Positions 7,691 to 20,541 of a stretch of 20,541 nucleotides of DNA are shown piece by piece. The notes beneath the pieces were generated by a model, which saw only the letters and a list, made by a program, of their open reading frames with translations, was not told the DNA's origin and ran no database searches. Numbering within the stretch: position 1 is the stretch's first letter; each line of letters starts with the position of its first letter. The stretch is taken from IMG/VR virus record IMGVR_UViG_3300010430_003214, positions 1 to 20,541 of that record; one strand, given 5' to 3'. The DNA is from a virus. The position numbers and the translations under genes are program-made.

Positions 7691-8758
7691 ATGGGAATAG
7701 ATTTTGATAAAGCGTTAAATGCTGCTGAACAGATAATAGGTACTGGTAAGCAACTAGCTGACCTTTATAAATTAACAGATTCAGATGAGAAAATAATTCA
7801 ACGCCCTAGGGGAATTAGAGTTCCACATGCAAATTTTGTAGATGCACTATGGATTCATATTCAACCCAAAGTTCTCTTGAGTCAAACGAAAGCAGCAAGA
7901 GGAGAAAATGCAACTAGAAGTTCTAAGGATTTTATCAAACCTGATGGTAGTGTTGCTACTTTACCTCTCTTTAAATTTCTAGCACCTGTTGAAATTCAGG
8001 AAGCAATTATACATGATTGGCAATCATATGAAAGTATAGTTACCAGACTCCTACAGAAAGGTGTAGATTTACATAGAACTTTTAGCGATATTAATACAAC
8101 AGTAAGACCTGCATATAGAGAGGGAGAAAAACTTTTAAAAAAAGCACTAAAAAGTGTAAAAGGGGTGACTGCTGGTGATGTCAAGACAGGATTAAGCAAT
8201 GTTGTGAGGGGCATGACCACTGCCACTGTACCTAGAAACAAACTTGATACTCCTTTAGTATATCAAGACTCTACTAGAAGAACATATACTTTTACATTTT
8301 ACTTAGTAGATGAGGGGAATTCATTTAAAGATGTTGTATTTCCGGTAAAACAATTGGAATATCTTTCGGCTCCAGGATATGGTGCTCCAGGTCAAGAATT
8401 CATTGGATTCAGCCCACCACATATTTTTGAGGTTTCAACTTTTCCAAGCACTAAGTTCATCAATATTCGAAATGCTGCACTTACTTCAGTGCAACCAATA
8501 TATAGACAACCATATAGAGATGGATATCCCTCTATGTGTGAATTAAACTTAACCTTTACTGAAATAGAACCTCTATATAAACGACAAATTGAAAGAGGTC
8601 AAAGGGGAACTGTAACAGTTTCTATCACTCCAGGTGTAAGATTAAGCCTTGGAGAGACACAAGACCTTAGTATTGCTGGAATATCGGGCAGGAAATATGC
8701 TGATAAGTTCAGCACAAAACCAGAATTTCCTACACCAGTAGCAGGTTACATGGACTAA
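7691..8758 (+). CDS. 48: Baseplate tail-tube initiator (gp48/gp54-like)
   Basis: A 355-residue protein just after the tape measure, the position of gp48 and gp54 in T4 (gp48 has 364). These proteins form the rings between the hub and the first gp19 ring and start tube growth. The C-terminal half has tube-like strands, with RRTYTFTFYLVDEGN (about 197-211) and the end segment INIRNAALTSVQPIY...LNLTFTEIEPLYKRQI (about 257-302), which parallels the final gp48 block 'IQSIRF...FTLEITMREI'. The N-terminal half (1-180) is helical and basic, and may contact the tape measure. Only one gene of this type is present, so it probably serves as both gp48 and gp54 or the other copy lies elsewhere. Which of the two T4 names fits better cannot be decided by eye. 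Confidence 0.72.
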   Translation: MGIDFDKALNAAEQIIGTGKQLADLYKLTDSDEKIIQRPRGIRVPHANFVDALWIHIQPKVLLSQTKAARGENATRSSKDFIKPDGSVATLPLFKFLAPVEIQEAIIHDWQSYESIVTRLLQKGVDLHRTFSDINTTVRPAYREGEKLLKKALKSVKGVTAGDVKTGLSNVVRGMTTATVPRNKLDTPLVYQDSTRRTYTFTFYLVDEGNSFKDVVFPVKQLEYLSAPGYGAPGQEFIGFSPPHIFEVSTFPSTKFINIRNAALTSVQPIYRQPYRDGYPSMCELNLTFTEIEPLYKRQIERGQRGTVTVSITPGVRLSLGETQDLSIAGISGRKYADKFSTKPEFPTPVAGYMD

Positions 8759-8773
8759 GAAGGAGAATATAAT

Positions 8774-9172
8774 ATGGCTAATACAATTAGACTAGATGAG
8801 AGTTTTGAAGAGATTACAGGGCAAGACATAAGTAATGTCTCACAACTCAAACTCTTTAATATTCTTCAAGATGAAAATGGAACCATATTCCAGAATATTT
8901 GGAGGTCATATTCTCTAAACGAAGAAGTTACAGAAGAAACCATTTTTTATAATACCTATGAAATGCAAGATGATGAATGGTGGGAAAACATTTCTTATGC
9001 AAATTATGAAACCCCAAATCTTTGGTGGGTATTATGTATTATGAATAATGTGGAAAATCCCTTTGAAGAGGTAAACCCAGGACAGAAAACCAAAATACTT
9101 AGAGCAAATTATCTTTATCAACTTATCAAAGAAATGGAAATTATATCTGAACTAGGTAAATCTGAATTATAG
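8774..9172 (+). CDS. 53: Baseplate wedge protein (gp53-like)
   Basis: 132 residues (T4 gp53: 196). gp53 clamps neighbouring wedges to the hub, and its fold relates to LysM-like P2 gpX. The diagnostic block is in the second half: a Tyr-Asn-Thr-Tyr strand (54-57), WENISYANYETPNLWWVLCI (73-92) in which the pair of tryptophans follows a 'YG.p.LWW' type turn, and NPFEEVNPGQKTKIL (98-112), the LysM-like 'NP...v.pG..l.ip' ending. It lacks the extra N-terminal part of T4 gp53. The ribosome binding site is AAGGAG at 8760-8765. Confidence 0.8.
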   Translation: MANTIRLDESFEEITGQDISNVSQLKLFNILQDENGTIFQNIWRSYSLNEEVTEETIFYNTYEMQDDEWWENISYANYETPNLWWVLCIMNNVENPFEEVNPGQKTKILRANYLYQLIKEMEIISELGKSEL

Positions 9173-9204: not shown

Positions 9205-10605
9205 ATGGTTAATCCAATAGCAGACAGCACACGGCAATCAGAAGAAACCCAATCAATATCAATTACCTTTGAAGCTTTTGATAAGGGGTATGTTCTGGAC
9301 ATGAACGATGTAGAATTGTTCTACTTTATTGAAGATATCTTTTCTTACAGCTTAACAGGTGTACTAAGATTCACAGACTTAATGGGGTTTGCTGAATTTG
9401 CACCACTAACCGGAAGTCAAGAGAAAATTGTTATTAGATACGGTGATGATAAAGATGTAAAATTAAGCTTTGACGTATATAAAATCAGAGAAATTGTACC
9501 ACAAGCTGCTGGAGGAGTCACTGACTCAACTGCCCATACACTCATAGAAATTGTATTTGTTGATGAATATCATGTGCGAATGACTCATCAAAAGTGGAGT
9601 AGGTCTTTTCTACAATCATCCGTTTCAGATATTGTTACCCATCTAGTGGACAATATGCTTGAGTGGTTTCTAGACTCAGGAACTTTTGAACCTTCAAGAG
9701 AAAAAATAGATTTTATAATGCCATGGTGGACAGTGAAGCAAGCTATTAGTTGGTTATCAAAAAGAGGGACTGGTGGTACTCCCCTACCTAGTTTACCTTC
9801 TAGCATTGGTGGCATAAGTATACCTAGCGTACCTGGGGGAGTTAGTACAACAGGAGGTAATCCTGGATACCTCTATTTCCCTAGTACCAAAAATAAGGAA
9901 CTTGGGTTAAATTTTATGACTCTCAATAAATTAATGCAAGGGTCTGTCAGAACAACAGGGGAAACAAAAGGCGTATATGTTTTTCAAAATCCTGAGAATA
10001 TTAATTATATCAATAGAATTTTAGGATGGGAACATATAGGTGTAGATAACTTCTTTCTTTCAAAGGGAATTCATGGTGGAAATAGATTTGGATATGATTT
10101 CAGCACAAAAGGTCTTCTTAATACTAGATATGAATACAAAGATGGTATTGATAAAACAACAATATTGGGGAACAAGACGTTATATACCGATATGGGAACA
10201 TCACGGTCAGAATATGTTATAGAGGGAGATAGCAGCATAGAAATTCTAGATTCTACATTTTATCATGAATTTATTAAAAGGTACTCCTTACAGCAGGGAA
10301 TTAAGATTATAGTCAAGGGACACGAAGAACGATATGCTGGTGCCTTAATAGAAATAGAATGGCCCTCCACAGAGAAACAGCTTGTACATAACAAACAAAT
10401 GAAGGGACTTTATCTCATTAAATCAGTTACACATCAATGGAGTCCAAGTAGACCTGGATGGATTCAGAAGTTAGTTCTATTAAAAAATGGTTATACAGAT
10501 TCTAGAAATAGAGACTTGCTTAAAGCTAGTAAAAAAAATCTCTATGGTGCAAGAGTTACTAGTATATTATCCAAAGCTGCTGATATAGGGGCAAATGTAA
10601 TATGA
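9205..10605 (+). CDS. 27: Baseplate hub protein (gp27-like)
   Basis: 466 residues; T4 gp27 has 391. A trimer forms the torus below the tube and holds the gp5 spike. The N-terminal strands ISITFEAFDKGYVLDMNDVE (18-37) and IEDIFSYSLTGVLRFTD (about 43-59) match the gp27 pattern of a beta domain that makes the pseudo-sixfold ring. The C-terminal part (about 365-445), with GALIEIEWPS and YLIKSVTHQWSPSRPGW, is the hub domain shared with VgrG and P2 gpD. A Gly/Ser/Pro-rich insert at about 186-220 (GGTPLPSLPSSIGG and onward) interrupts the middle and may be a flexible loop. The start has only a moderate site (AGGT near 9194). The last codons overlap the gp5 start (ATGA at 10602-10605), so hub and spike are translationally coupled. 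Confidence 0.85.
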   Translation: MVNPIADSTRQSEETQSISITFEAFDKGYVLDMNDVELFYFIEDIFSYSLTGVLRFTDLMGFAEFAPLTGSQEKIVIRYGDDKDVKLSFDVYKIREIVPQAAGGVTDSTAHTLIEIVFVDEYHVRMTHQKWSRSFLQSSVSDIVTHLVDNMLEWFLDSGTFEPSREKIDFIMPWWTVKQAISWLSKRGTGGTPLPSLPSSIGGISIPSVPGGVSTTGGNPGYLYFPSTKNKELGLNFMTLNKLMQGSVRTTGETKGVYVFQNPENINYINRILGWEHIGVDNFFLSKGIHGGNRFGYDFSTKGLLNTRYEYKDGIDKTTILGNKTLYTDMGTSRSEYVIEGDSSIEILDSTFYHEFIKRYSLQQGIKIIVKGHEERYAGALIEIEWPSTEKQLVHNKQMKGLYLIKSVTHQWSPSRPGWIQKLVLLKNGYTDSRNRDLLKASKKNLYGARVTSILSKAADIGANVI

Positions 10606-11690
10606 TAAGAGCTAGAGTGAAAGATTATGAACCACCAAGTGATAAACTTTCTAGTATTTATCGTGGTGTTATAGAAGACAGGGATGACCCTGCAAGTGCA
10701 GGTAGATGTAGAGTAAGAGTTTTTGGTGTTCACACTGAACGAAAAATTAAATCTAATATAGAGGGGATACCAACAGATGAATTACCGTGGGCTGAACCTG
10801 CAATGGGTCTCATAGAGGGGTCAATATCAGGATTTGGTTTATGGTCTGTTCCACTACAGGGTTCACATGTATTTGTATTCTTTGAAGGTGGAAACATCAT
10901 GCAACCAAGATATTTCGCTACAGTTCCAGGAATACCAAAAGAAGGTGCAGATGAAGCAACATTACAAACTGAGGGATTTCAAGACCCAGACGGTGTTTAT
11001 CCACTTAAAGTAGCAGACCCACCACTTGAACCAAATGCGCTCAATGAACCTGATGTTCATAAACTAGCAAGAGGGATAATAACATCCACGATTGTTAATG
11101 AGAAGAAAGAAAGACAAATAACAGATATTGAAACAGCAGATGGAAATACATGGAATGAACCCCTTCCATATTATGACGCAAGATATCCAGATAATATAAT
11201 ATTGGCAACGCATGGTGGAATTGTTGCTGAATTAGATAACACTGTTTTACCAGCAGGTGCAGAGGGAACTGAGACAGGAAAAAGAAGAGTCCATATCTAT
11301 CATCCATCACATACATTTATAGAGATAAGTGAAGAAGGTGATATCTCCTTCAGAAATGAGCGAGACAGATTTGAAATAGTAACACGAAATAGAAAGATTT
11401 ACATAATAGCAAATGAAGACAAGACTATTAACGAAAACCAAACACTCTATGTTAAGAAAGACAAGACAGAAAAAGTTGATAGGCATGTAACGGCAACATA
11501 TTCCAAAGACTATAACTTAGAAATTGGAAACGAATACAATCAATCAGTTGCAGCAGATAAATCTGTATCTGTTGATGGTAATAAATCATTAGATGTTGGT
11601 GGAAATTTAACAATTACTGTACAGGGTAATTGTGACATAGAAGCAAGCGGAGCAGTTAGGGTGACTGCTCCATCAATAGATTTGAATTAA
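10602..11690 (+). CDS. 5: Baseplate central spike, gp5/VgrG-like without lysozyme domain
   Basis: 362 residues against 575 in T4 gp5. Domains in order: an OB-fold at about 17-112 (YRGVIEDRDDPASAGRCRVR, then FGLWSVPLQGSHVFVFFEGG), which binds gp27; a linker with short strands at 113-235; and a C-terminal triple-stranded beta-helix at about 245-362 built from short alternating repeats (EKVDRHVTATYSKDYNLEIG, SVSVDGNKSLDVGGNLTITV), ending in the typical VTAPSIDLN. T4 places a muramidase between OB-fold and needle; here nothing of that size or with its catalytic pattern is present. Cell-wall digestion must come from another protein, if it is needed. The needle is capped by the PAAR protein encoded next, ten bases downstream. 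Confidence 0.87.
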   Translation: MIRARVKDYEPPSDKLSSIYRGVIEDRDDPASAGRCRVRVFGVHTERKIKSNIEGIPTDELPWAEPAMGLIEGSISGFGLWSVPLQGSHVFVFFEGGNIMQPRYFATVPGIPKEGADEATLQTEGFQDPDGVYPLKVADPPLEPNALNEPDVHKLARGIITSTIVNEKKERQITDIETADGNTWNEPLPYYDARYPDNIILATHGGIVAELDNTVLPAGAEGTETGKRRVHIYHPSHTFIEISEEGDISFRNERDRFEIVTRNRKIYIIANEDKTINENQTLYVKKDKTEKVDRHVTATYSKDYNLEIGNEYNQSVAADKSVSVDGNKSLDVGGNLTITVQGNCDIEASGAVRVTAPSIDLN

Positions 11691-11699
11691 GGGGCTTAT

Positions 11700-12002
11700 A
11701 TGGGCATTCCGGTAGCTAGAATAGGTGATATAGGTGTGGGTGATGATAAGTGTCACACTAGCACTAAGAAAAATGTATCAGGAGTCTTAATAAATGGTGC
11801 AGGAACGGTGAGAGCAGAAGGTTCTTCTGTGGGATATCTTGGCTCAATTGTAGTAGCAGGTGATGGTCATACAGGAATAATAGTCACAGGAGCAGGGACA
11901 GTAAGAGCAGAAGGAATTCCAGTAGCACAACTTGGTTCTGTTTTTGTTGGTTGTTTTACAGGAATAATGGTATCAGGTGCAGGGACGGTGACAGCAGGAT
12001 GA
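11700..12002 (+). CDS. 5.4: PAAR-domain spike tip protein (gp5.4-like)
   Basis: 100 residues, the size of T4 gp5.4 (97). PAAR proteins form a sharp cone on the tip of the spike and bind one metal ion. The sequence is a triplicated Gly/Val/Ala strand motif: NGAGTVRAEG (32-41), TGAGTVRAEG (63-72) and SGAGTVTAG (92-100), preceded by PVARIGD and later PVAQLGS. Candidate metal ligands are C18, H19, H57 (GDGHTG) and C85 (GCFTG), in the places of the PAAR His/Cys set. It is the whole protein, with no effector extension. The stop overlaps the next ATG (11999-12002). Confidence 0.9.
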   Translation: MGIPVARIGDIGVGDDKCHTSTKKNVSGVLINGAGTVRAEGSSVGYLGSIVVAGDGHTGIIVTGAGTVRAEGIPVAQLGSVFVGCFTGIMVSGAGTVTAG

Positions 12003-12751
12003 GTATATATAGTGATAAAATTAGAGAGATGGTGGATGGATATCCAGACCAGATAGATTCTCTTCAAAAATCTTTAGACTCTCTCAATGCCCAAACAGCA
12101 GACTTACAGCAGCAAGAGGAAGCATTGGAAAAGGGAGCATTAGATGTTATTGCTCAAGACCAATTAGTTGATGTTCTTTTGCCAGCAAAGACAAATGACC
12201 CTGCTAATGCTTACATCTATACATTCGGTAATTTTGGTAGTTATGGTTCAAGTGGTAATGCAACAGATTGGGAAGTATATCAATTAATTGTAAAAGAACC
12301 CACATCAACTTTTACACAAGACAGTCCATCAGGATTTGTAATTGCAGGAAATTATACCGGACAAGTATCACCTGGAGATAAAATTTTTATCACAAATGGT
12401 GGTTCTTTCGCAGGACCAGCAACAGTAACATATGTAGCACTTAATGAACCTTTAAAACCATTAGGAACGTACATTGTTATTAATAATTTCATAGTTCAAG
12501 CAAGTGTAAATGGTATGTGGAAGTTGGTCTATAAATACCTTGGAGTGGGGTGGGATAGTGACCCTGCTATTCAACAAGAAATTGATGACTATGCGTTCAT
12601 CATTGACCATTTGCATAAAGCCCTAGGGACTGGTGGAACATATGGAATTATCGCTTTAACTGATGCCCTAACAGTTGGTAAGAATATAGTGGCAGCAAAT
12701 CTAAATAAGATAGAAGGTGCTGAAACCAAATACGATAGGTTTGGTACTTAA
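11999..12751 (+). CDS. Unknown structural protein with N-terminal coiled coil
   Basis: 250 residues from the ATG at 11999, which overlaps the PAAR stop by four bases. The open frame reaches back to 11951, but that part would lie inside PAAR without a ribosome binding site. Residues 5-50 form an amphipathic, Gln/Leu/Asp-rich coiled coil (IDSLQKSLDSLNAQTADLQQ). Residues about 60-185 are beta-rich with Gly/Ser/Thr turns (FGNFGSYGSSGNATDWEVYQ), and the last 65 are again helical. The helix-then-beta layout suits a trimeric fibre or wedge accessory protein. Being placed between the spike tip and gp25, it is probably part of the baseplate. No family is recognised. Confidence 0.65.
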   Translation: MSIYSDKIREMVDGYPDQIDSLQKSLDSLNAQTADLQQQEEALEKGALDVIAQDQLVDVLLPAKTNDPANAYIYTFGNFGSYGSSGNATDWEVYQLIVKEPTSTFTQDSPSGFVIAGNYTGQVSPGDKIFITNGGSFAGPATVTYVALNEPLKPLGTYIVINNFIVQASVNGMWKLVYKYLGVGWDSDPAIQQEIDDYAFIIDHLHKALGTGGTYGIIALTDALTVGKNIVAANLNKIEGAETKYDRFGT

Positions 12752-12762
12752 GGGGAGATAAA

Positions 12763-13152
12763 ATGACAGTAGGTTCAGCCTTTTATTCAGACATTGACAT
12801 CAAATTAGAAATACAAAGTGATGGTGATTATACAAGAGATACTGAATATGCAGCAGTTATTAATTCTCTAACTAATATTTTTAATACCACACCTGGGTCT
12901 AGAAGAATGTTACCAGAGTTTGCAGTAAACATCTGGAACCAACTTTTCGAACCCATGGATGAAGAAACAGGATGGAAAATAGGTCAAGACTTTTTAGGAG
13001 CAATAGAAATTTGGGATGACAGAGTTATTGTTGAGAATATCCATGTTCATGCCAACTATGACAATAATCAATATGAAGTGAAGCTTACCTTTACTGTTGA
13101 ATCAAGAACAGAAACAGTAACAGTTGACTTTATATTAAAACCTGGAGGATAA
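12763..13152 (+). CDS. 25: Baseplate wedge protein (gp25-like)
   Basis: 129 residues; T4 gp25 has 132. It belongs to the gp25/W family found in all contractile injection systems; it joins the gp6 core bundle and helps start sheath assembly. Diagnostic features are the N-terminal strand with SAFYSDIDIKLE (5-16) and the segment NTTPGSRRMLPEFAVNIWNQ (41-60), the family's 'T..GsR...pefG' motif. In this protein Ala replaces the usual Gly after Phe. The C-terminal strands YEVKLTFTVES and VTVDFIL follow. The ribosome binding site is AAGGGGAG at 12750-12757, and gp6 starts four bases after its stop. Confidence 0.92.
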   Translation: MTVGSAFYSDIDIKLEIQSDGDYTRDTEYAAVINSLTNIFNTTPGSRRMLPEFAVNIWNQLFEPMDEETGWKIGQDFLGAIEIWDDRVIVENIHVHANYDNNQYEVKLTFTVESRTETVTVDFILKPGG

Positions 13153-13155
13153 GAA

Positions 13156-14850
13156 ATGCCCGATTTAGTACCAGAATATTTGCGAATTGATTTTCAGACA
13201 CTCATCATTAGACTGAAAGAGCAAATCAAAAACAGCGAAATATTCAGAGATACCGATTATGAAGGTGCTAACGTAACTATCTTAGCTGAACTAATGGCAT
13301 ATATTGGTGAGCTACAGACCTTCTATACTAATAAGGTAGCAAAGAATATATATATGGAGACAGCAGACATCTATGAGAATGTTCATAGATTATCTACTCT
13401 CATTGGATATGACCCCAAGGGGTTTAGAGGAGCAAGAGGAACAATATCCGTTACCGTATCAGCAGGTGTAACTAATGGAGATATTTTGAATATCTCTGAT
13501 TGGCATCAGATATCAAGTACACAATCAGATGAAGAAAGTGGAAACGTAATTCAATATGCTACCACTGAAAGTGCAACTGTTACGGCAAGTCCAGTTCCAT
13601 ATAAATTTGACTTATTTGTAAGGCAGGGCATAGTAACTAGGTTTTCATTTACAGGCAGGGATATTATAGACAACGAAATTCTGCTACCTCTTGCTGATTA
13701 TGATTATGACGATAACTTAATTGATGAACATGACACTGTTGAAGTTAGAGTTAATAATAGTCTATGGACTAGAGTTGGTGACTTCTTTGACCTGATTTCG
13801 GGACTACAAGACACTAGTACAGTATATAAGTTTCTATATGATAAGTACCGGAGACATAAGGTGCTTTTCTCTGCATTGAGAGAAGTTCCACAAGACTCCG
13901 ATGCTATTGATATAGTCGTTCTCAGTTCTTTGGGCGAAAACAGTGGTGTTGGTCCGAACACAATTATTTCACCGGAACCTGATTTCGTCTTTAACACAAA
14001 CACAGGACTATATCTTGATAACACCACTATAACAGTTACAAATAGTGCTTCAACAGTTGGTGCAGCAAACCCAGAAGGAATTGATGAAATTAAAGATAAC
14101 TCTCAAGGTCAATTACATGCACAGTTTAGAAACGTAGCTGCTGTTGACTATATATCTAATCTTAGTGCTCGTTCAGATATCGTTAGCACTAATGTCTGGG
14201 GTGAGCAAGAAGTAGCACCATCTGGTGATACATCTGAATATAACAAAGTGCATATAGTATCATATCCAAATCCATGGGGAGATGGAACAATTGAGACCTC
14301 TGCTGCATCAGGTGATAATGGAGCAGTATATCTTGTTCCAACCGTGATGTCAAGTGTATGGAGAGAAGACTTAGAAAATTATCTTGAGCCACGAAAAATG
14401 CTTACTGTATATGAACAGTTTGAAATTCCTCAAATCCTATATTTTCAGTATGATATTGGAATTCGTATAGCACGAACATATGATTTCGCAGCAGTTAGAG
14501 ATGATACTGCTGCAAAACTTGCTTTTTATTTTGACCCAACATTAAGGTCATTTAACGAGAAAATAAATTTTAGGGATATAGAAGAGTTCCTATTAGATAA
14601 GTCTGAAGTATCTGAGGGAACACTATTCACTACTGAGAATAGATTTACCAACATTGCTGGTATTAGGAATTTAATATTTAGGGATATTAATGTGCAAAAC
14701 GCAACTGTATATGAACCTAATCAAACAATGTTCCCAAGATATATTCATACTCCATATGCTGGTGAGAATAAGCTAAGAACTATTGAGCTAGGATTTGAAC
14801 AATTCCCTGCGCTTGATAGCATTAATACTAGATTTACTGAAGAGGTGTAA
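13156..14850 (+). CDS. 6: Baseplate wedge protein (gp6-like, baseplate J family)
   Basis: 564 residues; T4 gp6 has 660. gp6 dimers make the continuous ring that ties the wedges together. The N-terminal region, about 15-100, has the baseplate-J signature: an Asn-Val-Thr-Ile-Leu-Ala-Glu-Leu block, a helix LMAYIGELQTFYTNKVAKN (46-64), then ETADIYENVHRLSTLIGYDP (69-88), followed by the RGARGTISVTVSAGV strand. The C-terminal part (from about 410) contains the conserved P2-gpJ-like segments with KLAFYFDPTLRSFNEKINF (about 453-471) and a Asn-Leu-Ile-Phe-Arg-Asp strand. It lies between gp25 and gp7, the usual order in contractile systems. GGAGGA at 13144-13149 precedes the ATG. Confidence 0.9.
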   Translation: MPDLVPEYLRIDFQTLIIRLKEQIKNSEIFRDTDYEGANVTILAELMAYIGELQTFYTNKVAKNIYMETADIYENVHRLSTLIGYDPKGFRGARGTISVTVSAGVTNGDILNISDWHQISSTQSDEESGNVIQYATTESATVTASPVPYKFDLFVRQGIVTRFSFTGRDIIDNEILLPLADYDYDDNLIDEHDTVEVRVNNSLWTRVGDFFDLISGLQDTSTVYKFLYDKYRRHKVLFSALREVPQDSDAIDIVVLSSLGENSGVGPNTIISPEPDFVFNTNTGLYLDNTTITVTNSASTVGAANPEGIDEIKDNSQGQLHAQFRNVAAVDYISNLSARSDIVSTNVWGEQEVAPSGDTSEYNKVHIVSYPNPWGDGTIETSAASGDNGAVYLVPTVMSSVWREDLENYLEPRKMLTVYEQFEIPQILYFQYDIGIRIARTYDFAAVRDDTAAKLAFYFDPTLRSFNEKINFRDIEEFLLDKSEVSEGTLFTTENRFTNIAGIRNLIFRDINVQNATVYEPNQTMFPRYIHTPYAGENKLRTIELGFEQFPALDSINTRFTEEV

Positions 14851-14853
14851 AAT

Positions 14854-17259
14854 ATGCCAAGATTTACAGACCCTCCATACTTTTTATTGAGAGATTATTT
14901 TGCTGATACTTTACTTGAAGGAGCACCACCTGTTTTAGCAATTGATGAAGACAGTCTTTTTTGGCAGGACTTTATTTGGCAAGATTGGGATGATTGGAAA
15001 TGGAAAGACTTTAACTTCTGGTCTTGGGTAAGATGGGTTATATACACTCAAGCAGGATGGAGTGATGGTTGTACTCTAAAGGGACAATATCCTGGTGCTG
15101 GTCAAGGTCATGGTATAACAGTTGATGGTGGTGGAGCAACTGAACTATGGGTATTAACTCCAGGTTCAGATGAAGAATTCATTCCTATTAAATTAGATTT
15201 TTCAGAAATAAATGGGAACTTTTTCAAATTCTTTCAGAATTTCGCTACTGATACCAATGAATGGGAACCAGGGTCACCTGTATTTTTCAGAAAGAACAGT
15301 CCTTTTCATTATTGGTTAAGGCAGCAAAGAACAATACCTAACCCAACTGTTGAGAGAACAGTTGAAAGATATGTAAATCCAGAAAGACCATTTATGTATT
15401 TTGGTACTATATTTCCAACTGGAACTGAATCAACAACCCCATCTGGACAGACACATCACGTTGAATTTTGGGGAATGAAGGATTGGACTGTTGCAGCATT
15501 ACCACAAGCTAGTAGAGGAGAAAGGATAATAGAACAATTTAACCTATACTTTGATAGGTTATATCATGAAGCATTTCAAGCATTAAAAGAAGTTAATACA
15601 TTACTAGACCCAATTGAATGTGATATTAACTATCTTGGTATGATTACTCAATTGTTTAATGTCACCTTGATTGATGAAATACCAGATGAGTTGAGAAAAA
15701 GACAATTTACTCAATCCATTATTAACTTCCTCAAAAGAAAGGGAACATATTCTTCACTATACGCTATCTTCAGAATCATGTTGGGTGATACTAGCAATAG
15801 ATTGAATATTTACGAAAGGTGGCATAAGGGCAAAAATCCACCTGGAGACCATACTGGAAATCCAGCTATAACATCTCCGGTTTCACCATTTTTTAATGAT
15901 TATCTATATACGGCATTCTATGGTGAAGACCCTGTAGCACCTAGTGGTAGTAGTGCTTATGGTTGTAGATATCCTGTTGGTCCTGATTATTATGCAAGTC
16001 ATGGAACAAGTGCATATCCATCACAATATGGTGATAATGACCCGACAACAATAGTGCCAACTAGTGCAGCAGATTATATATCACCACACTATAAGGTGGA
16101 AATTGATTTTTCTTGTGAACCAATGGGTGAACATTTCATTATAGACCAGACAACCATTGAGTCATTGCTTGATTATTGGGAGATGATAAGACCTGTAGCG
16201 AGAGTTTCACATTACCGCTACTTGATAGCACCAATTACGAATTTTCAGGGGTCTTGGTTTCCACTATATTCTGCTGAATATTCAGCAATTATGAACTCTA
16301 TATGTACTGACCCTGTTGTTGCAGCAGAAGCAGGAGCAGCAGTTTTTGTTCAGACATTCAACTCTGCTGAGTGGATATTCTACCATAATTTGGGAAGTGA
16401 AAATATTATTGTTCAGACGTTTGATTATAGTTACAACATGACGTTTCCAAAAGAGATTATTGTGGATGATGCCAATACCGTTAGAGTCATTTATGATAAA
16501 CCAGTTGCAGGGTATGCATATGCTCTTACTGATACAGCAGTGCAGCAAGTAGCATCAGCACTAAATTGGAATGTGGCGCATAATCAAGGCGAATGGGATG
16601 TTCTGTCACAGTTTGACCACATAGACGCAGCAGAACGAAAAAAACTAATGCCAATAAGGGTAGACCTTATTACTAATAATAGTCTACAGGCTGAGTTTAG
16701 TCAAGCTAGAAGTGGATGGACAATTACATCTCTAGCGGATTATACACATGAGCAATCTATAGCACAAACAACGTGGCAAGTCAATCATAATCTTGAAGTA
16801 ACTGGTATACAAGTACAATGTGTTGATAGCAGCAGAGAAGTAATTACACCAAAAACGGTAACAGCTATTAATCAGGATACGGTAATTATAGAATTTGATG
16901 ATGCCATAACAGGATGGGCATTAGTAAAGAAAATTGGTAAACCTCTTACACAAGATGGTGTGATGGACCCAATTGTAAATGGATGGATAAAGTTTGGAAC
17001 TGGTACAGATTTGGATACTTGGAATCCTATCTTTAATAATGATTTGAAGAATCCTATCTATCAAATTGATGATTTTACTATAACAAAACAAGATAATTTA
17101 TATTTTATTAGTGCAGATACACAAGGAATTTTTGAGGGTGAAATTACTGAAATTGGCATATTCAATGATGTAGGAAGATTAATTTTTTACACCATGAATG
17201 ACCCATTTTATAAACCTTCAGATGTAGGAATAACACTACATTATAGAATACTTCGCTAA
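14854..17259 (+). CDS. 7: Baseplate wedge protein (gp7-like, with P2 gpI domain and C-terminal repeats)
   Basis: 801 residues (T4 gp7: 1032). The core, about 225-320, is a gpI-type domain: a long helix (IIEQFNLYFDRLYHEAFQAL), then DPIECDINYLGMITQLFNV, then RKRQFTQSIINFLKRKGTYS, the last being the family's most conserved block. An N-terminal stretch at about 31-63 is extraordinarily rich in tryptophan. From about 495 to 695 there are three diverged tandem repeats of about 65 residues, each with Trp, a His-Asn motif, a Pro/Val strand and a Gly-Trp/Gly-Tyr end. The last 100 residues (EIGIFNDVGRLIFYTMND) look like the collar or fibre-type domain that ends many phage appendage proteins. The extra repeats suggest that gp7 carries fibre-binding surfaces itself. 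It begins four bases after gp6. Confidence 0.82.
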   Translation: MPRFTDPPYFLLRDYFADTLLEGAPPVLAIDEDSLFWQDFIWQDWDDWKWKDFNFWSWVRWVIYTQAGWSDGCTLKGQYPGAGQGHGITVDGGGATELWVLTPGSDEEFIPIKLDFSEINGNFFKFFQNFATDTNEWEPGSPVFFRKNSPFHYWLRQQRTIPNPTVERTVERYVNPERPFMYFGTIFPTGTESTTPSGQTHHVEFWGMKDWTVAALPQASRGERIIEQFNLYFDRLYHEAFQALKEVNTLLDPIECDINYLGMITQLFNVTLIDEIPDELRKRQFTQSIINFLKRKGTYSSLYAIFRIMLGDTSNRLNIYERWHKGKNPPGDHTGNPAITSPVSPFFNDYLYTAFYGEDPVAPSGSSAYGCRYPVGPDYYASHGTSAYPSQYGDNDPTTIVPTSAADYISPHYKVEIDFSCEPMGEHFIIDQTTIESLLDYWEMIRPVARVSHYRYLIAPITNFQGSWFPLYSAEYSAIMNSICTDPVVAAEAGAAVFVQTFNSAEWIFYHNLGSENIIVQTFDYSYNMTFPKEIIVDDANTVRVIYDKPVAGYAYALTDTAVQQVASALNWNVAHNQGEWDVLSQFDHIDAAERKKLMPIRVDLITNNSLQAEFSQARSGWTITSLADYTHEQSIAQTTWQVNHNLEVTGIQVQCVDSSREVITPKTVTAINQDTVIIEFDDAITGWALVKKIGKPLTQDGVMDPIVNGWIKFGTGTDLDTWNPIFNNDLKNPIYQIDDFTITKQDNLYFISADTQGIFEGEITEIGIFNDVGRLIFYTMNDPFYKPSDVGITLHYRILR

Positions 17260-17277
17260 ATATGGATGGAGGGATTA

Positions 17278-18333
17278 ATGAAGTTTGCAAGCTATATCAA
17301 AGAAGGAACAACAGAACAAATAGATGAGTTTAGTGTTTTGGAAAGAACGTATGGAGAGAAGGATGGACTTACTATAGGTCTTGCTAATATTCATGCCAAA
17401 GTTCCTGATATTGAACACAACAAAGATAAGATAGCAAGAGCAGTAGATATATTCAAACAGAAAGGTGTCAATATAGCAGTGTTCCCAGAGTTTTGTCTTG
17501 CAGGATATTTCTGGGATAATACACCTAAAGAACCCGAAGAAGGGGAAGGATTAGATGCCAAAGAACAAAAGGGAGACAATCAATGTTGGGAATATATGGA
17601 TAAAGCTATTGTTGAAAAACATTGGGATTGGGTAGCTTCTTCATTGGAGTCAAAATTAGATAAGAATTTCCAATTCATCATATTTAATAATATTAGAAAG
17701 GGTCCATCCGGTCAAAAGAAATATTGGAACTCTACATACGTTATAAATAAACAGCTTGATTATAAAAATCCTAAGTGGATATATGACAAGACATTTCTTC
17801 CAGGTATAGAAAAGACCTATACCATTTCTGGGGAAACCGATAGACTTGTACTTGATACCAAATGGGGTAGACTTGGATTTTCCACTTGTTATGATTTTTG
17901 TATCTCTCAAATATATCAGGAAATGGCTCAGATAGATAAGGTTGATGCTTGTATTCAGATAGCTTCTTGGAGAGGTAGTTCTGAGCGCAACTATCCAGGG
18001 ATGAATGTAGCCACTGATAACTATTATGGTGATTTATGGGATATGCTTATGGATGGTACAGCAGCTAGAAATCAGATATGGGTCATATCAACTAATGCAG
18101 TGGGAATACATGGTATTAGTAATGCTAGATTTTGGGGTGGTTCTGGATTGTGGTCACCTTCTGGATTGAAACTACTACAAGGTTCTCATACTAAAGATGA
18201 GTTATTGATAGTTCACAATGTTGATATAAAGGGAGAGGTAAAATTTGAAAAGGATGATTTTGATTACTCAACTGATTTCGGTTTAATATATAAAATACTA
18301 AAAGGTAAGAGAGCATTTACAAGAATAAAATGA
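17278..18333 (+). CDS. Carbon-nitrogen hydrolase (nitrilase superfamily)
   Basis: 351 residues from the ATG at 17278, chosen because GGAGGG (17269-17274) lies just before it; an ATG at 17266 in the same frame has no site. The enzyme family hydrolyses C-N bonds of nitriles, amides or ureas. The full triad is present: E71 in AVFPEFCLAGY, K171 in YDKTFLPGIEKTY, C204 in GFSTCYDFC, with the usual 33-residue K-C gap. E178 fits the second glutamate. Later family blocks are ARNQIWVISTNAVG (263-276) and FWGGSGLWSPSG (285-296). Only two bases of drift in codon use are visible and it reads like its neighbours. The N-terminus MKFASYIKE-G resembles T4 capsid-targeting peptides. It lies between gp7 and a fibre gene, where no metabolic enzyme is expected. 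The substrate cannot be deduced; an amidase-type reaction is likeliest. Confidence 0.88.
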   Translation: MKFASYIKEGTTEQIDEFSVLERTYGEKDGLTIGLANIHAKVPDIEHNKDKIARAVDIFKQKGVNIAVFPEFCLAGYFWDNTPKEPEEGEGLDAKEQKGDNQCWEYMDKAIVEKHWDWVASSLESKLDKNFQFIIFNNIRKGPSGQKKYWNSTYVINKQLDYKNPKWIYDKTFLPGIEKTYTISGETDRLVLDTKWGRLGFSTCYDFCISQIYQEMAQIDKVDACIQIASWRGSSERNYPGMNVATDNYYGDLWDMLMDGTAARNQIWVISTNAVGIHGISNARFWGGSGLWSPSGLKLLQGSHTKDELLIVHNVDIKGEVKFEKDDFDYSTDFGLIYKILKGKRAFTRIK

Positions 18334-18350
18334 GATAGGAGAAAGATATT

Positions 18351-18881
18351 ATGGCACGTATACACTTTTGGACATACATGCTCAATGAGGAGGGGCAACC
18401 TCTACAAGATGCAGATGTAACTGTCATGCTTGCAGGAACAGTAGTGCCAGCAGACGTTTATTTGCAGGAAGCAGGTGGTTCATCAACAGATGTGGCACCA
18501 CAAATGATAACAAACTCAGAAGGATATTTTGAGTTCTGGATAGGAGATGTTAATGAAATAGCAGGTTATGCTACTCCACAGAAATTCAAACTAGTATGGG
18601 AAAAGGTAGGCGTTACAACTGGTCAAATTGACTTTATTGACATTCTACCTAATGCCCCACGATTTTACAATGATACGACAACCTCTTGGACATCTGCTGC
18701 ATCAGGATTTTTCTATGACGTAGTTCATGGTTTGAATAATCAATTCCCATTGGTTCAAGCATATGACCAAGCAACACAAACAGTGGTAGACCCACTAATT
18801 ATTCAAACTATTTCAACATCCCAGACTAGGATTTGGATGAGTACGAATACAAGAATACTGGAAATTGCCATAATAGGATAA
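18351..18881 (+). CDS. Baseplate or fibre decoration protein with Ig-like and HNL-type domains
   Basis: 176 residues, AGGAG at 18336-18340. The N-terminal half (1-95) looks like a transthyretin- or carboxypeptidase-regulatory-type beta domain: an opening strand, then QPLQDADVTVMLAG (16-29), and the typical ITNSEGYFEFWIGD (53-66) ending. The C-terminal half (about 108-176) matches the repeat seen three times in the gp7-like protein: SWTSAASGFFYDVVHGLNNQ, then a Val/Asp/Pro strand and a final hydrophobic strand. This suggests a small appendage protein that attaches to the wedge or to the fibre base. It is not T4 gp8 (334 residues). A name cannot be given. Confidence 0.6.
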   Translation: MARIHFWTYMLNEEGQPLQDADVTVMLAGTVVPADVYLQEAGGSSTDVAPQMITNSEGYFEFWIGDVNEIAGYATPQKFKLVWEKVGVTTGQIDFIDILPNAPRFYNDTTTSWTSAASGFFYDVVHGLNNQFPLVQAYDQATQTVVDPLIIQTISTSQTRIWMSTNTRILEIAIIG

Positions 18882-18884
18882 CGT

Positions 18885-19247
18885 ATGAAACTGCTCAAAT
18901 ATCTTTCTCAAACAAGTGATGAAGAAACCACCAAGTTTAGAGTATTAGACTGTAAGCTTGTCAAAGAAGAGACAGGTAATAAGGAACTGGTAGAAAAAGT
19001 TGTAGACAAGTACGAACTTGGCAACGACATATTAGAGTTATATGACCTGTTGAACAAGGATTTACGTAAGCATTACAAAGGAAAATTAAAATTTGACTTT
19101 ACATTAGGCGAAGGAAAGCCTGTAGATGTATTGAAGATAAAGTCAGGTAGAAAGAACTTTATTAAGAAAAAAGTGTTTGAATTTGAAGATGAACTTGCAA
19201 AGACCCAAAGAAAGCTGGAAAGTTATTTGCAAGAAAAAAAAAGTTAA
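18885..19247 (+). CDS. Unknown charged protein next to gp55
   Basis: 120 residues, starting four bases after the previous stop, with AGGA at 18875-18878 as the site. It is rich in Lys, Glu and Leu. The first half (10-50) has short strands and a helix (VEKVVDKYELGNDILELYDL, about 36-55), the middle has KGKLKFDFTLGEGKPVDVLK, and the end is a long basic helix (about 88-120) with KTQRKLESYLQEKKS. There is no membrane segment and no cysteine beyond C23. It sits upstream of the late sigma factor, so a transcription-related role might be guessed, but it does not resemble T4 gp33 and I recognise no family. Confidence 0.65.
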   Translation: MKLLKYLSQTSDEETTKFRVLDCKLVKEETGNKELVEKVVDKYELGNDILELYDLLNKDLRKHYKGKLKFDFTLGEGKPVDVLKIKSGRKNFIKKKVFEFEDELAKTQRKLESYLQEKKS

Positions 19248-19256
19248 CATAAATTT

Positions 19257-19285
19257 TTTACAATTGCAGGCATATATGGTAAAAT
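19257..19285 (+). promoter_or_regulatory. Host sigma-70-type promoter for gp55
   Basis: TTTACA (19257-19262), a 17-base spacer and TAAAAT (19280-19285), with TG one base upstream of the -10 (19277-19278), making an extended -10. Five of six -35 bases match TTGACA and five of six -10 bases match TATAAT. The gp55 start is 60 bases downstream. It is the only such promoter noticed in an intergenic gap here, and it would let the host polymerase make the late sigma factor before late transcription begins. Confidence 0.6.
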
Positions 19286-19345
19286 GATTTATACTCTTTA
19301 TATATTATATAGTATATAGGAGAAAAATATGTGCTGGAGGATAAG

Positions 19346-19756
19346 ATGAGATACGGAAAGAAATACATTTCGAATGCAGACCTTCTACCTGAAATAGTTA
19401 AATTTAAAGAGACAGGAGAAGTATCAGAGGAACTAGGAGACATGCTTCTCAACATGGGATATAAGTATGCAACCAAAGGGAACTTCGCTAACTACACATG
19501 GAGGGATGATATGGTACAACAAAGCATAGAGATATGTCTAACGTACCTGAAGAATTTTGACCCAGATAAACAAAAGAGACCTAACCCCTTTGCTTACATT
19601 ACAACGATATTCAAAAACGCCTTTATCAACTATATCAAAAAGCAAGGAAGACACAGTGTGATAAAGGATATTTGCTATAGAAACAGAGAAGTTTTGTTTG
19701 AGGGTCCGACATACTTAAACAAAGGAATAGACTATCAAACACTAAAAAAGGAGTAA
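19346..19756 (+). CDS. 55: Late promoter sigma factor (gp55-like)
   Basis: 136 residues from the ATG at 19346, with GGAGG at 19336-19340; an in-frame GTG at 19331 would put that site inside the gene, so it is rejected. T4 gp55 (185 residues) is a distant sigma-70 relative that recognises TATAAATA. The match is clear: a Lys-Lys-Tyr-Ile-Ser-Asn-Ala-Asp-Leu-Leu start (T4: YNYVNNKELL), GYKYATKGNFANYTWRDDMV (about 42-61; T4: [20 protein letters not shown]), then LKNFDPDKQKRPNPFAYITT (T4: LHNFDETKYKNPHAYITQ) and FKNAFINYIKKQ (T4: FNAFVQRIKKE). The acidic C-terminal tail of T4 gp55, which binds the sliding clamp gp45, is absent or very short here. It is separate from the DNA-replication region, amid tail genes. 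Confidence 0.9.
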   Translation: MRYGKKYISNADLLPEIVKFKETGEVSEELGDMLLNMGYKYATKGNFANYTWRDDMVQQSIEICLTYLKNFDPDKQKRPNPFAYITTIFKNAFINYIKKQGRHSVIKDICYRNREVLFEGPTYLNKGIDYQTLKKE

Positions 19757-19760
19757 TATA

Positions 19761-20246
19761 ATGTCCGTTACAAGAGCATATGGTGCTAGAGCACTAGTTG
19801 GTGGTGGCATAGGTGCAATGGATAAAATAGATGGGAGTCTGTTGAATGACCAAGATAAATGCTTCACGGTGACTGAAACTGCTGCATATCTATACAATCT
19901 TGATGAATTTTCAGGTGAAGCTGAAGACAGTCCCAAAATCATAGCACCAGATACAAGTGCTGGAAATAAAAGATGGAAGCTAATTGGGGTAATAACTGAT
20001 TCTCATAGAGGAAGAAACACAATGATTACAGGCGTAACAGGATTATCTGTAGCATTTGATTACCCATTTGACGATACCAATTTCAACATAGAGGTATCGC
20101 TTCTAAATGTAACTGATGTAAGTCCATCACAATATGGTATCACTGTTACAGCAAAGACTGTAAGTGGTTTTAATGTAGCCTTTTCAGGTGCAATGGATTC
20201 AGATAATTATGAATTGCATTGGTTTGCAAGTAGAGACTTAGTATAA
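19761..20246 (+). CDS. Tail-fibre-type virion structural protein
   Basis: 161 residues with AAGGAG at 19747-19752, one codon before the gp55 stop. The first 80 residues follow a pattern common in phage appendages: a Gly-rich start (RALVGGGIGAMDKIDGSLLND), an aromatic strand (AAYLYNLDE), then SPKIIAPDTSAGNKRWKLIG (57-76), in which the 'Pd...gnkrW.l' element is typical. The second half (83-161) is a beta-rich domain: VTGLSVAFDYPFDDTNFNIE and FNVAFSGAMDSDNYELHWFA. Both look like short modules repeated in tail fibres of myoviruses. It probably forms part of a fibre, spike or connector together with the following gene. Confidence 0.6.
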   Translation: MSVTRAYGARALVGGGIGAMDKIDGSLLNDQDKCFTVTETAAYLYNLDEFSGEAEDSPKIIAPDTSAGNKRWKLIGVITDSHRGRNTMITGVTGLSVAFDYPFDDTNFNIEVSLLNVTDVSPSQYGITVTAKTVSGFNVAFSGAMDSDNYELHWFASRDLV

Positions 20247-20249
20247 AAA
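20242..20249 (+). promoter_or_regulatory. Imperfect late-promoter-like octamer
   Basis: TATAAAAA matches TATAAATA at seven of eight positions and lies 18 bases before the ATG at 20268, right at the stop of the upstream gene. It is a weak candidate in an AT-rich region. Confidence 0.25.
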
Positions 20250-20267
20250 TAAAGTAGGAGCAAAAAA

Positions 20268-20541
20268 ATGGCAAGATTTAAGGAGAGAAACTTAAAATTA
20301 GATGATACTGAAAAGGTTGTTTTCGGTACATCGGATAACAATGAAATGGCATTTATTCCAAGTGCTAATAAGGTAATGTTATCTGAAAATATAGGAGTGA
20401 GTGCATATCCACCAGTAGCAGATGAGGATATAGTGCCAAAAAAATATGTCGATGAATTACAATGGATTCTAGGAGATGATACATTCGAACCAACTGGTTT
20501 TGTTGACTATTGGCTACATTCTGTAATGACTTTTGATAATA
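20268..20541 (+). CDS. Tail fibre or virion structural protein, N-terminal part
   Basis: Starts at ATG 20268 with GTAGGAG at 20254-20260 and runs open to the right edge; 91 complete codons are visible. The N-terminus MARFKERNLKLDDTEKVVFG has the short strand typical of a fibre attachment end. AYPPVADEDIVPKKYVDE (about 46-63) is a motif seen in many T4-like and marine phage fibres, where a 'VPkKYVD' segment leads into a longer shaft. What follows turns polar (GDDTFEPTGFVDYWL). The full length and the receptor-binding part lie outside the window. Confidence 0.65.
   Translation, partial: MARFKERNLKLDDTEKVVFGTSDNNEMAFIPSANKVMLSENIGVSAYPPVADEDIVPKKYVDELQWILGDDTFEPTGFVDYWLHSVMTFDN

Follow-up and report, generated by a model that had tools for sequence, protein, structure and literature searches.

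A bacterial-type amide hydrolase with a capsid-targeting-like N-terminal tag in a T4-like phage

The window analyzed here, one complete IMG/VR record of 20,541 bases, is a piece of a larger phage genome and is without head genes. It contains a T4-type tail cluster, a late sigma factor and an open reading frame for a 351-residue enzyme of the nitrilase superfamily. The features used below all lie on the plus strand:

10602–14850, plus strand: T4-type baseplate genes (gp5-like, PAAR tip, gp25, gp6-like), from Pfam and PHROG-type profile matches
17268–17272, plus strand: GGAGG ribosome-binding site, well spaced for the ATG at 17278
17278–18333, plus strand: nitrilase-superfamily (CN_hydrolase) enzyme, 351 residues; confirmed reading frame with Pfam match, homologue alignment and AlphaFold2 model
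17278–17304, plus strand: capsid-targeting-like tag MKFASYIKE (F3-x-x-Y6-I7-x-E9), from orthologues and the T4 targeting residues (PMC9026906), with a prohead-protease cut predicted after Glu9
17305–17325, plus strand: linker, residues 10–16, variable in length and sequence among orthologues
17326–18330, plus strand: enzyme core, starting E17-F-S-V-L-E-R-T where, in the alignment, the core of the bacterial homologue L026 begins past its signal peptide
17488–17490, plus strand: codon of catalytic Glu71 (this and the next three from sequence and homologue alignment)
17788–17790, plus strand: codon of catalytic Lys171
17809–17811, plus strand: codon of Glu178, the second conserved glutamate of the superfamily and its usual fourth residue
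17887–17889, plus strand: codon of the nucleophile Cys204
19331–19756, plus strand: gp55-type late sigma factor (phrog_234, E = 1.3e-27), indicating a T4-type phage context

A longer reading of the enzyme frame is possible from an ATG at 17266, which has no ribosome-binding site before it. The start at 17278 is preferred because the position of the GGAGG fits this codon instead, and because four of the five viral orthologues begin at the equivalent position. Against Pfam CN_hydrolase, whose cut-off is 23.2 bits, the product scores 66.6 (E = 2.8e-18). The complete Glu71-Lys171-Cys204 triad that the sequence-only reading had described is there, accompanied by Glu178, and all four residues are invariant in an alignment of 11 homologues. 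An AlphaFold2 model built from 11 sequences (pLDDT 74, pTM 0.79), which replaced a poorer model from six (pLDDT 59), matches nitrilase-superfamily structures with Z scores of 24–27 at about 14–19% identity, among them β-ureidopropionase, D-carbamoylase, N-carbamoylputrescine amidase and Nit2. Triad and fold together place the protein in the nitrilase (CN hydrolase) superfamily.

None of the curated subfamily models reached its own cut-off with the enzyme, all being far below, and the substrate is therefore left at an amide, an N-carbamoyl compound or, less likely, a nitrile. Identity as N-carbamoylputrescine amidase (TIGR03381) was rejected at 41.2 bits against a cut-off of 410.25, with all 11 family members scoring weakly. 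The anti-phage nitrilase-fusion defence proteins (DRT, CARF-nitrilase) were likewise set aside: the enzyme stands alone, without a reverse transcriptase or CARF domain, and its PADLOC matches to such fusions are weak and span 36–55 residues. A search of the INPHARED phages returned no homologue, and the library of papers searched yielded none naming a phage nitrilase as an auxiliary gene or as a packaged protein.

Identity between the tail sheath of the window and the sheaths of T4-like phages, two Desulfovibrio vulgaris phage records among them, is about 30–40%; nucleotide similarity to known phages was looked for across 14854–20541 and none was seen. The host is probably a sulfate-reducing bacterium, to judge from the bacterial homologues of the enzyme, a class III cytochrome c in a 45-kb relative of the phage (G003) and the sheath match to the Desulfovibrio phages.

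The enzyme begins MKFASYIKE followed by glycine, just as first read from the sequence. Its five viral orthologues lie in T4-like contigs, and four of them (five of six members when the window is counted) keep M[KRN]Fxx[YF][IL]xE, with the starts MKFKNYINE (L003), MKFKNFITE (L002), MRFTSYLNE (L014) and MNFRKYITE (L015). The remaining one, L016, has a divergent start (MAFKQKLFSWANEVE) in which the site reads Ala-Asn-Glu, not Ile/Leu-x-Glu. Past Glu9 the linker differs among members, and the conserved core resumes at about Glu17-Phe18. The codons of the tag differ between the window and the four tag-keeping orthologues while the motif is kept at the level of amino acids; conservation therefore acts on the peptide.

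Scanning 84,980 species genomes returned a single bacterial relative of the enzyme, in a Desulfobacteraceae MAG. When 395 genomes from the phylum of that MAG were sampled, another five proved to encode members, in one case divided between two contigs. All bacterial homologues to date come from Desulfobacterota-type genomes, and MxFxxYIxE is absent from every bacterial member found. Three (L026, L032 and L037) have, judged by eye, a classical Sec signal peptide at the site of the phage tag and linker; three others (L033, L034 and L035) have neither a Sec signal peptide nor the tag at the N-terminus. The genes for L026, L032 and L037 adjoin the same MFS transporter gene, which suggests that Desulfobacterota-type bacteria have a periplasmic pathway for using amides. 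A tree of the enzymes settles neither the monophyly of the phage proteins nor the branching between phage and bacterial members, and for this reason we do not claim a single transfer.

In T4, the first ten residues of internal protein III (IPIII) are enough for packaging, residues 4 and 7 of the capsid-targeting sequence (CTS) act in targeting and residues 8 and 10 in processing, gp21 cleaves after (L/I)-x-E, and CTS fusions up to β-galactosidase in size are packaged and delivered (PMC9026906). F3, Y6, I7 and E9 of the phage enzyme have the mutual spacing of Y4-x-x-F7-I8-x-E10 in T4, so that targeting and processing residues are both present and rightly spaced in the enzyme, with L016 as the divergent member. 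The proposal that Ile-Lys-Glu lies at the T4 distance thus holds for the spacing inside the motif but not for its absolute position, as the cleavable Glu is residue 9 and not 10. MKTYQEFIAE, which the sequence-only reading had assigned to T4 internal and scaffold proteins alike, does open internal proteins II and III in the T4 genome; the scaffold gp22 starts MLKEQLIAEA instead, and Alt starts MELITELFDE. Since T4's own scaffold is without the tag, an untagged scaffold does not refute capsid targeting. A small T4 protein, gp61.1 (NC_000866, 54 residues, start 19130, minus strand), begins MKTFKEFIKE, the same tag, and may be an unrecognised internal protein.

Other proteins with this N-terminus were looked for; within the window the enzyme gene is the only one, and the relatives G001 (92 kb), G002 (6 kb) and G003 each have several. 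Matches were counted with the regular expression M[KR](x)[FYLIM]xx[FYW][ILVM]xE behind a Shine-Dalgarno-like site, and the expectation was taken from shuffled N-termini. The expression was partly shaped after the relatives' sequences had been seen, which leaves T4 as the sole independent check; there it gave IPII and IPIII alone (2 against 0.06 expected). Four matches on unrelated proteins were found in G001 (0.03 expected), three each in G002 and G003 (0.00 expected in both) and one in the window (0.01 expected). SPO1 had no match to the strict expression, and neither had HTVC008M, Melnitz, pf16 or S-RIM32, which are T4-like but less closely related. The shorter pattern [FYW][ILV]xE within residues 4–14 occurs 19 times in G001 against 2.4 expected, with a p value of 1.3e-11 that is optimistic because paralogues are among the matches; its enrichment in T4 and SPO1 is not significant.

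A scan of IMG/VR for GGAG followed by MKF/MRF-xx-YINE returned 22 contigs, where a rough estimate that assumes even base composition gives less than one by chance. No fewer than twelve proteins, to all appearances unrelated to one another, begin with these matches. As to whether the tag is confined to T4-like phages, 10 of the 22 contigs encode gp21, gp23 or gp55, the other 12 being fragments or undecided. One peptide on unrelated phage proteins, as expected of a CTS, is accordingly found in G001, G002 and G003 and in 22 further viral contigs. A candidate late promoter, TATAAATA, preceding the tagged genes was discarded as uninformative because the background is AT-rich.

Several observations adjoin these counts. 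A further type of tag, approximately M..I..KI[DN].[YF][IL].E and ending in an aromatic-(I/L)-x-E site, is found in G001 (L007–L009) at 53233, 53479, 53703, 74547, 84266, 91458 and 91700, on small proteins that include paralogue arrays. A conserved 120-residue protein, encoded at 18885–19247 of the window and 8433–8795 of G001, starts MKLLKYLSQ and MRLFKYMGL, respectively, which is the shape of the tag without a cleavable Glu; the protein could belong to the head core and be targeted without processing, or else the likeness is a coincidence. The gp55-like matches in the contigs G409 (15414–15857) and G418 (61917–62328) contain in-frame TGA codons, two reported per contig, for which stop-codon reassignment or assembly errors are possible reasons.

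The prohead protease that would process the tag, of the gp21 family (S77), is encoded in the relatives G001 and G005. The predicted gp23 maturation sites, aligned with FLTE↓A of T4, are YLTE↓T in G001, WIDE↓V in G005 and DLNE↓A in a Desulfovibrio phage, and seven further tag-bearing contigs have a predicted gp23 site of the (I/L/M)xE type. Because the ends of the tags (YINE, YIKE, FITE, YLNE) match these predicted sites, they are the expected cut sites of the phages' own protease.

The tag also marks other candidate cargo. G003 encodes a second tagged enzyme, a 101-residue rubrerythrin/ferritin-like protein whose bacterial homologues mostly align from about residue 11–17 and start MLSxIP instead. 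Further tagged proteins are a HAD-type protein and two related YRG-motif proteins of G001, which by eye look like ADP-ribosyltransferases. Relatives of these two form ten consecutive genes in the Agrobacterium jumbo phage Atu_ph07 (MF403008, 39484–49507; AUZ94865–AUZ94874), a tandem array annotated as hypothetical in which every protein starts M[KR]WxxLxE. By gene order the array corresponds to CDS 53–62 or 64–73, according to the offset in numbering, and so lies inside CDS 31–76; the report on this phage describes mass spectrometry of virions that detected 29 proteins from that cluster (PMC6102473), an indirect hint that tagged proteins enter the virion. The array could possibly represent a family of injected ADP-ribosyltransferase-like proteins. 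A tagged 602-residue protein at 2556–4364 of L002 starts MRLLRYLKE, and its C-terminal half repeats about 20 residues (IRxxYYxNxPxDxDAKKD).

Taken together, the data make it quite probable that a bacterial-type amide hydrolase has been turned into an internal head protein of a T4-like phage that is packaged, cut and ejected with the DNA. The capsid-targeting role first proposed for the N-terminus gains from the motif spacing, the conservation of the tag beside a variable linker, its absence from bacterial homologues, its recurrence on unrelated proteins, and the gp21 protease and predicted gp23 motif of the relatives; injection, the other half of the proposal, is predicted from the example of T4. 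It is probable because a tag of the T4 head-loading kind replaces a bacterial export signal. Residues 1–9 would act as a CTS that draws the enzyme into the prohead core, and a gp21-type protease would cut after Ile-Lys-Glu9, giving a mature enzyme from Gly10 inside the head. The enzyme would leave the head with the DNA at infection, as Alt and the internal proteins do in T4, and, in the new host, hydrolyse a small amide or N-carbamoyl compound. The likeliest early use would be counter-defence, by removing a host amide with a signalling or poisoning effect, or the release of ammonium; relatives of the phage also have an asparaginase-type gene and glutamate dehydrogenase. Nitrilases usually form oligomers. 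Oligomerisation may hinder passage through the tail, although β-galactosidase passed in T4. Packaging, cleavage, ejection, host and substrate are all predictions from gene and protein sequences.

Other roles for the enzyme or its tag have to be weighed against this. It is unlikely, though worth considering, that the protein is an ordinary auxiliary metabolic enzyme acting during phage production and that the motif, common to accessory genes of these phages, is a chance likeness or a recombination-borne leader with no sorting role. The enzyme gene does change its location between contigs, as a cargo gene would, and the relatives do have metabolic genes without the tag: in G003 (IMGVR_UViG_3300035158_000869) the class III cytochrome c (L014 4585–4992) and a full-length glutamate dehydrogenase (L027 3154–4407, minus strand), and in G001 the asparaginase-type gene. 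These same genes indicate, however, that the tag is not a default on metabolic genes. A leader with no role is also difficult to reconcile with a peptide that is kept in its amino acids and not its codons while the following residues drift, that terminates with the motif predicted for gp23 maturation and that recurs on unrelated proteins far beyond chance.

Targeting to another part of the virion (tail, baseplate or neck), with an enzyme that acts on the cell envelope at adsorption, would suit the periplasmic export of some bacterial homologues and the baseplate genes that adjoin the enzyme gene in the window, L003 and L015. We regard it as quite improbable. The gene lies close to head genes in L016 and to replication genes in L014, so the baseplate linkage is unstable, and the motif fits the T4 head-targeting peptide and head-protease site, whereas T4 tails are not processed by gp21. 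Alternatively, a packaged enzyme might act within the head, or while packaging is under way, and be delivered only incidentally; it might, for instance, convert N-carbamoylputrescine to putrescine that neutralises DNA. N-carbamoylputrescine amidase is among both the closest curated family and the solved structures, and T4 head DNA is partly neutralised by polyamines (PMC3012670). Yet the match, at 41 bits, is far under the 410 bits that the family model requires, and no agmatine deiminase partner was noticed among those neighbouring reading frames that were read, which makes such an in-head role very improbable.

Loading into the head for delivery thus remains the preferred reading, and under it the amidase is probably new cargo for a system of a known kind, that of the T4 internal proteins, whose cargo repertoire is likely wider. 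On present evidence it is an evenly balanced question whether a large group of T4-like phages that infect anaerobic and marine bacteria shares a transferable N-terminal tag by which varying sets of bacteria-derived enzymes are loaded and injected; the same balance applies to the candidate set that goes with it, namely the amidase and the ferritin-like protein, together with the ADP-ribosyltransferase-like and HAD-type proteins, whose origin is less clear. If true, this would be a general natural system for enzyme delivery and not a peculiarity of T4. A readable tag would allow candidate injected enzymes to be listed from sequence alone, so that what T4-like phages inject could be tested in uncultured phages as well. 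If the cargo is a small-molecule amidase, this would indicate a host amide, possibly one that signals defence, whose prompt removal aids infection. The tag would be the natural counterpart of engineered CTS-based protein delivery.

Although the internal proteins of T4 were described decades ago, their roles are largely unsolved except for Alt and IPI. The CTS of IPI, IPII and IPIII and the tag described here are alike in being N-terminal peptides with two bulky residues three apart and an Ile/Leu-x-Glu site, in being common to otherwise unrelated proteins, and, as far as the relatives here are concerned, in the presence of a gp21-type protease gene. They differ in that the tag motif lies one residue closer to the N-terminus, that packaging is known for T4 and predicted from genes here, and that the T4 proteins are small and phage-specific whereas the putative cargo here is a folded, bacterial-type enzyme. 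Alt, an ADP-ribosyltransferase, is known to be an enzyme ejected with the DNA, as is predicted for the phage amidase; fold and chemistry are unrelated, and the target of Alt is RNA polymerase, whereas that predicted for the amidase is a small amide. The exported CN hydrolases of Desulfobacterota-type bacteria (L026, L032 and L036/L037) belong to the same subfamily as the phage enzyme, with L026 and L032 being 45–46% identical to it over the alignment, but they are chromosomal and carry a Sec signal peptide where the phage enzyme has the tag. With β-ureidopropionase, D-carbamoylase, N-carbamoylputrescine amidase and Nit2 it has the fold and the Glu-Lys-Cys site in common; its low identity to these four branches, its scores under all curated cut-offs and its inserts set it apart as a member of an uncharacterised subfamily.
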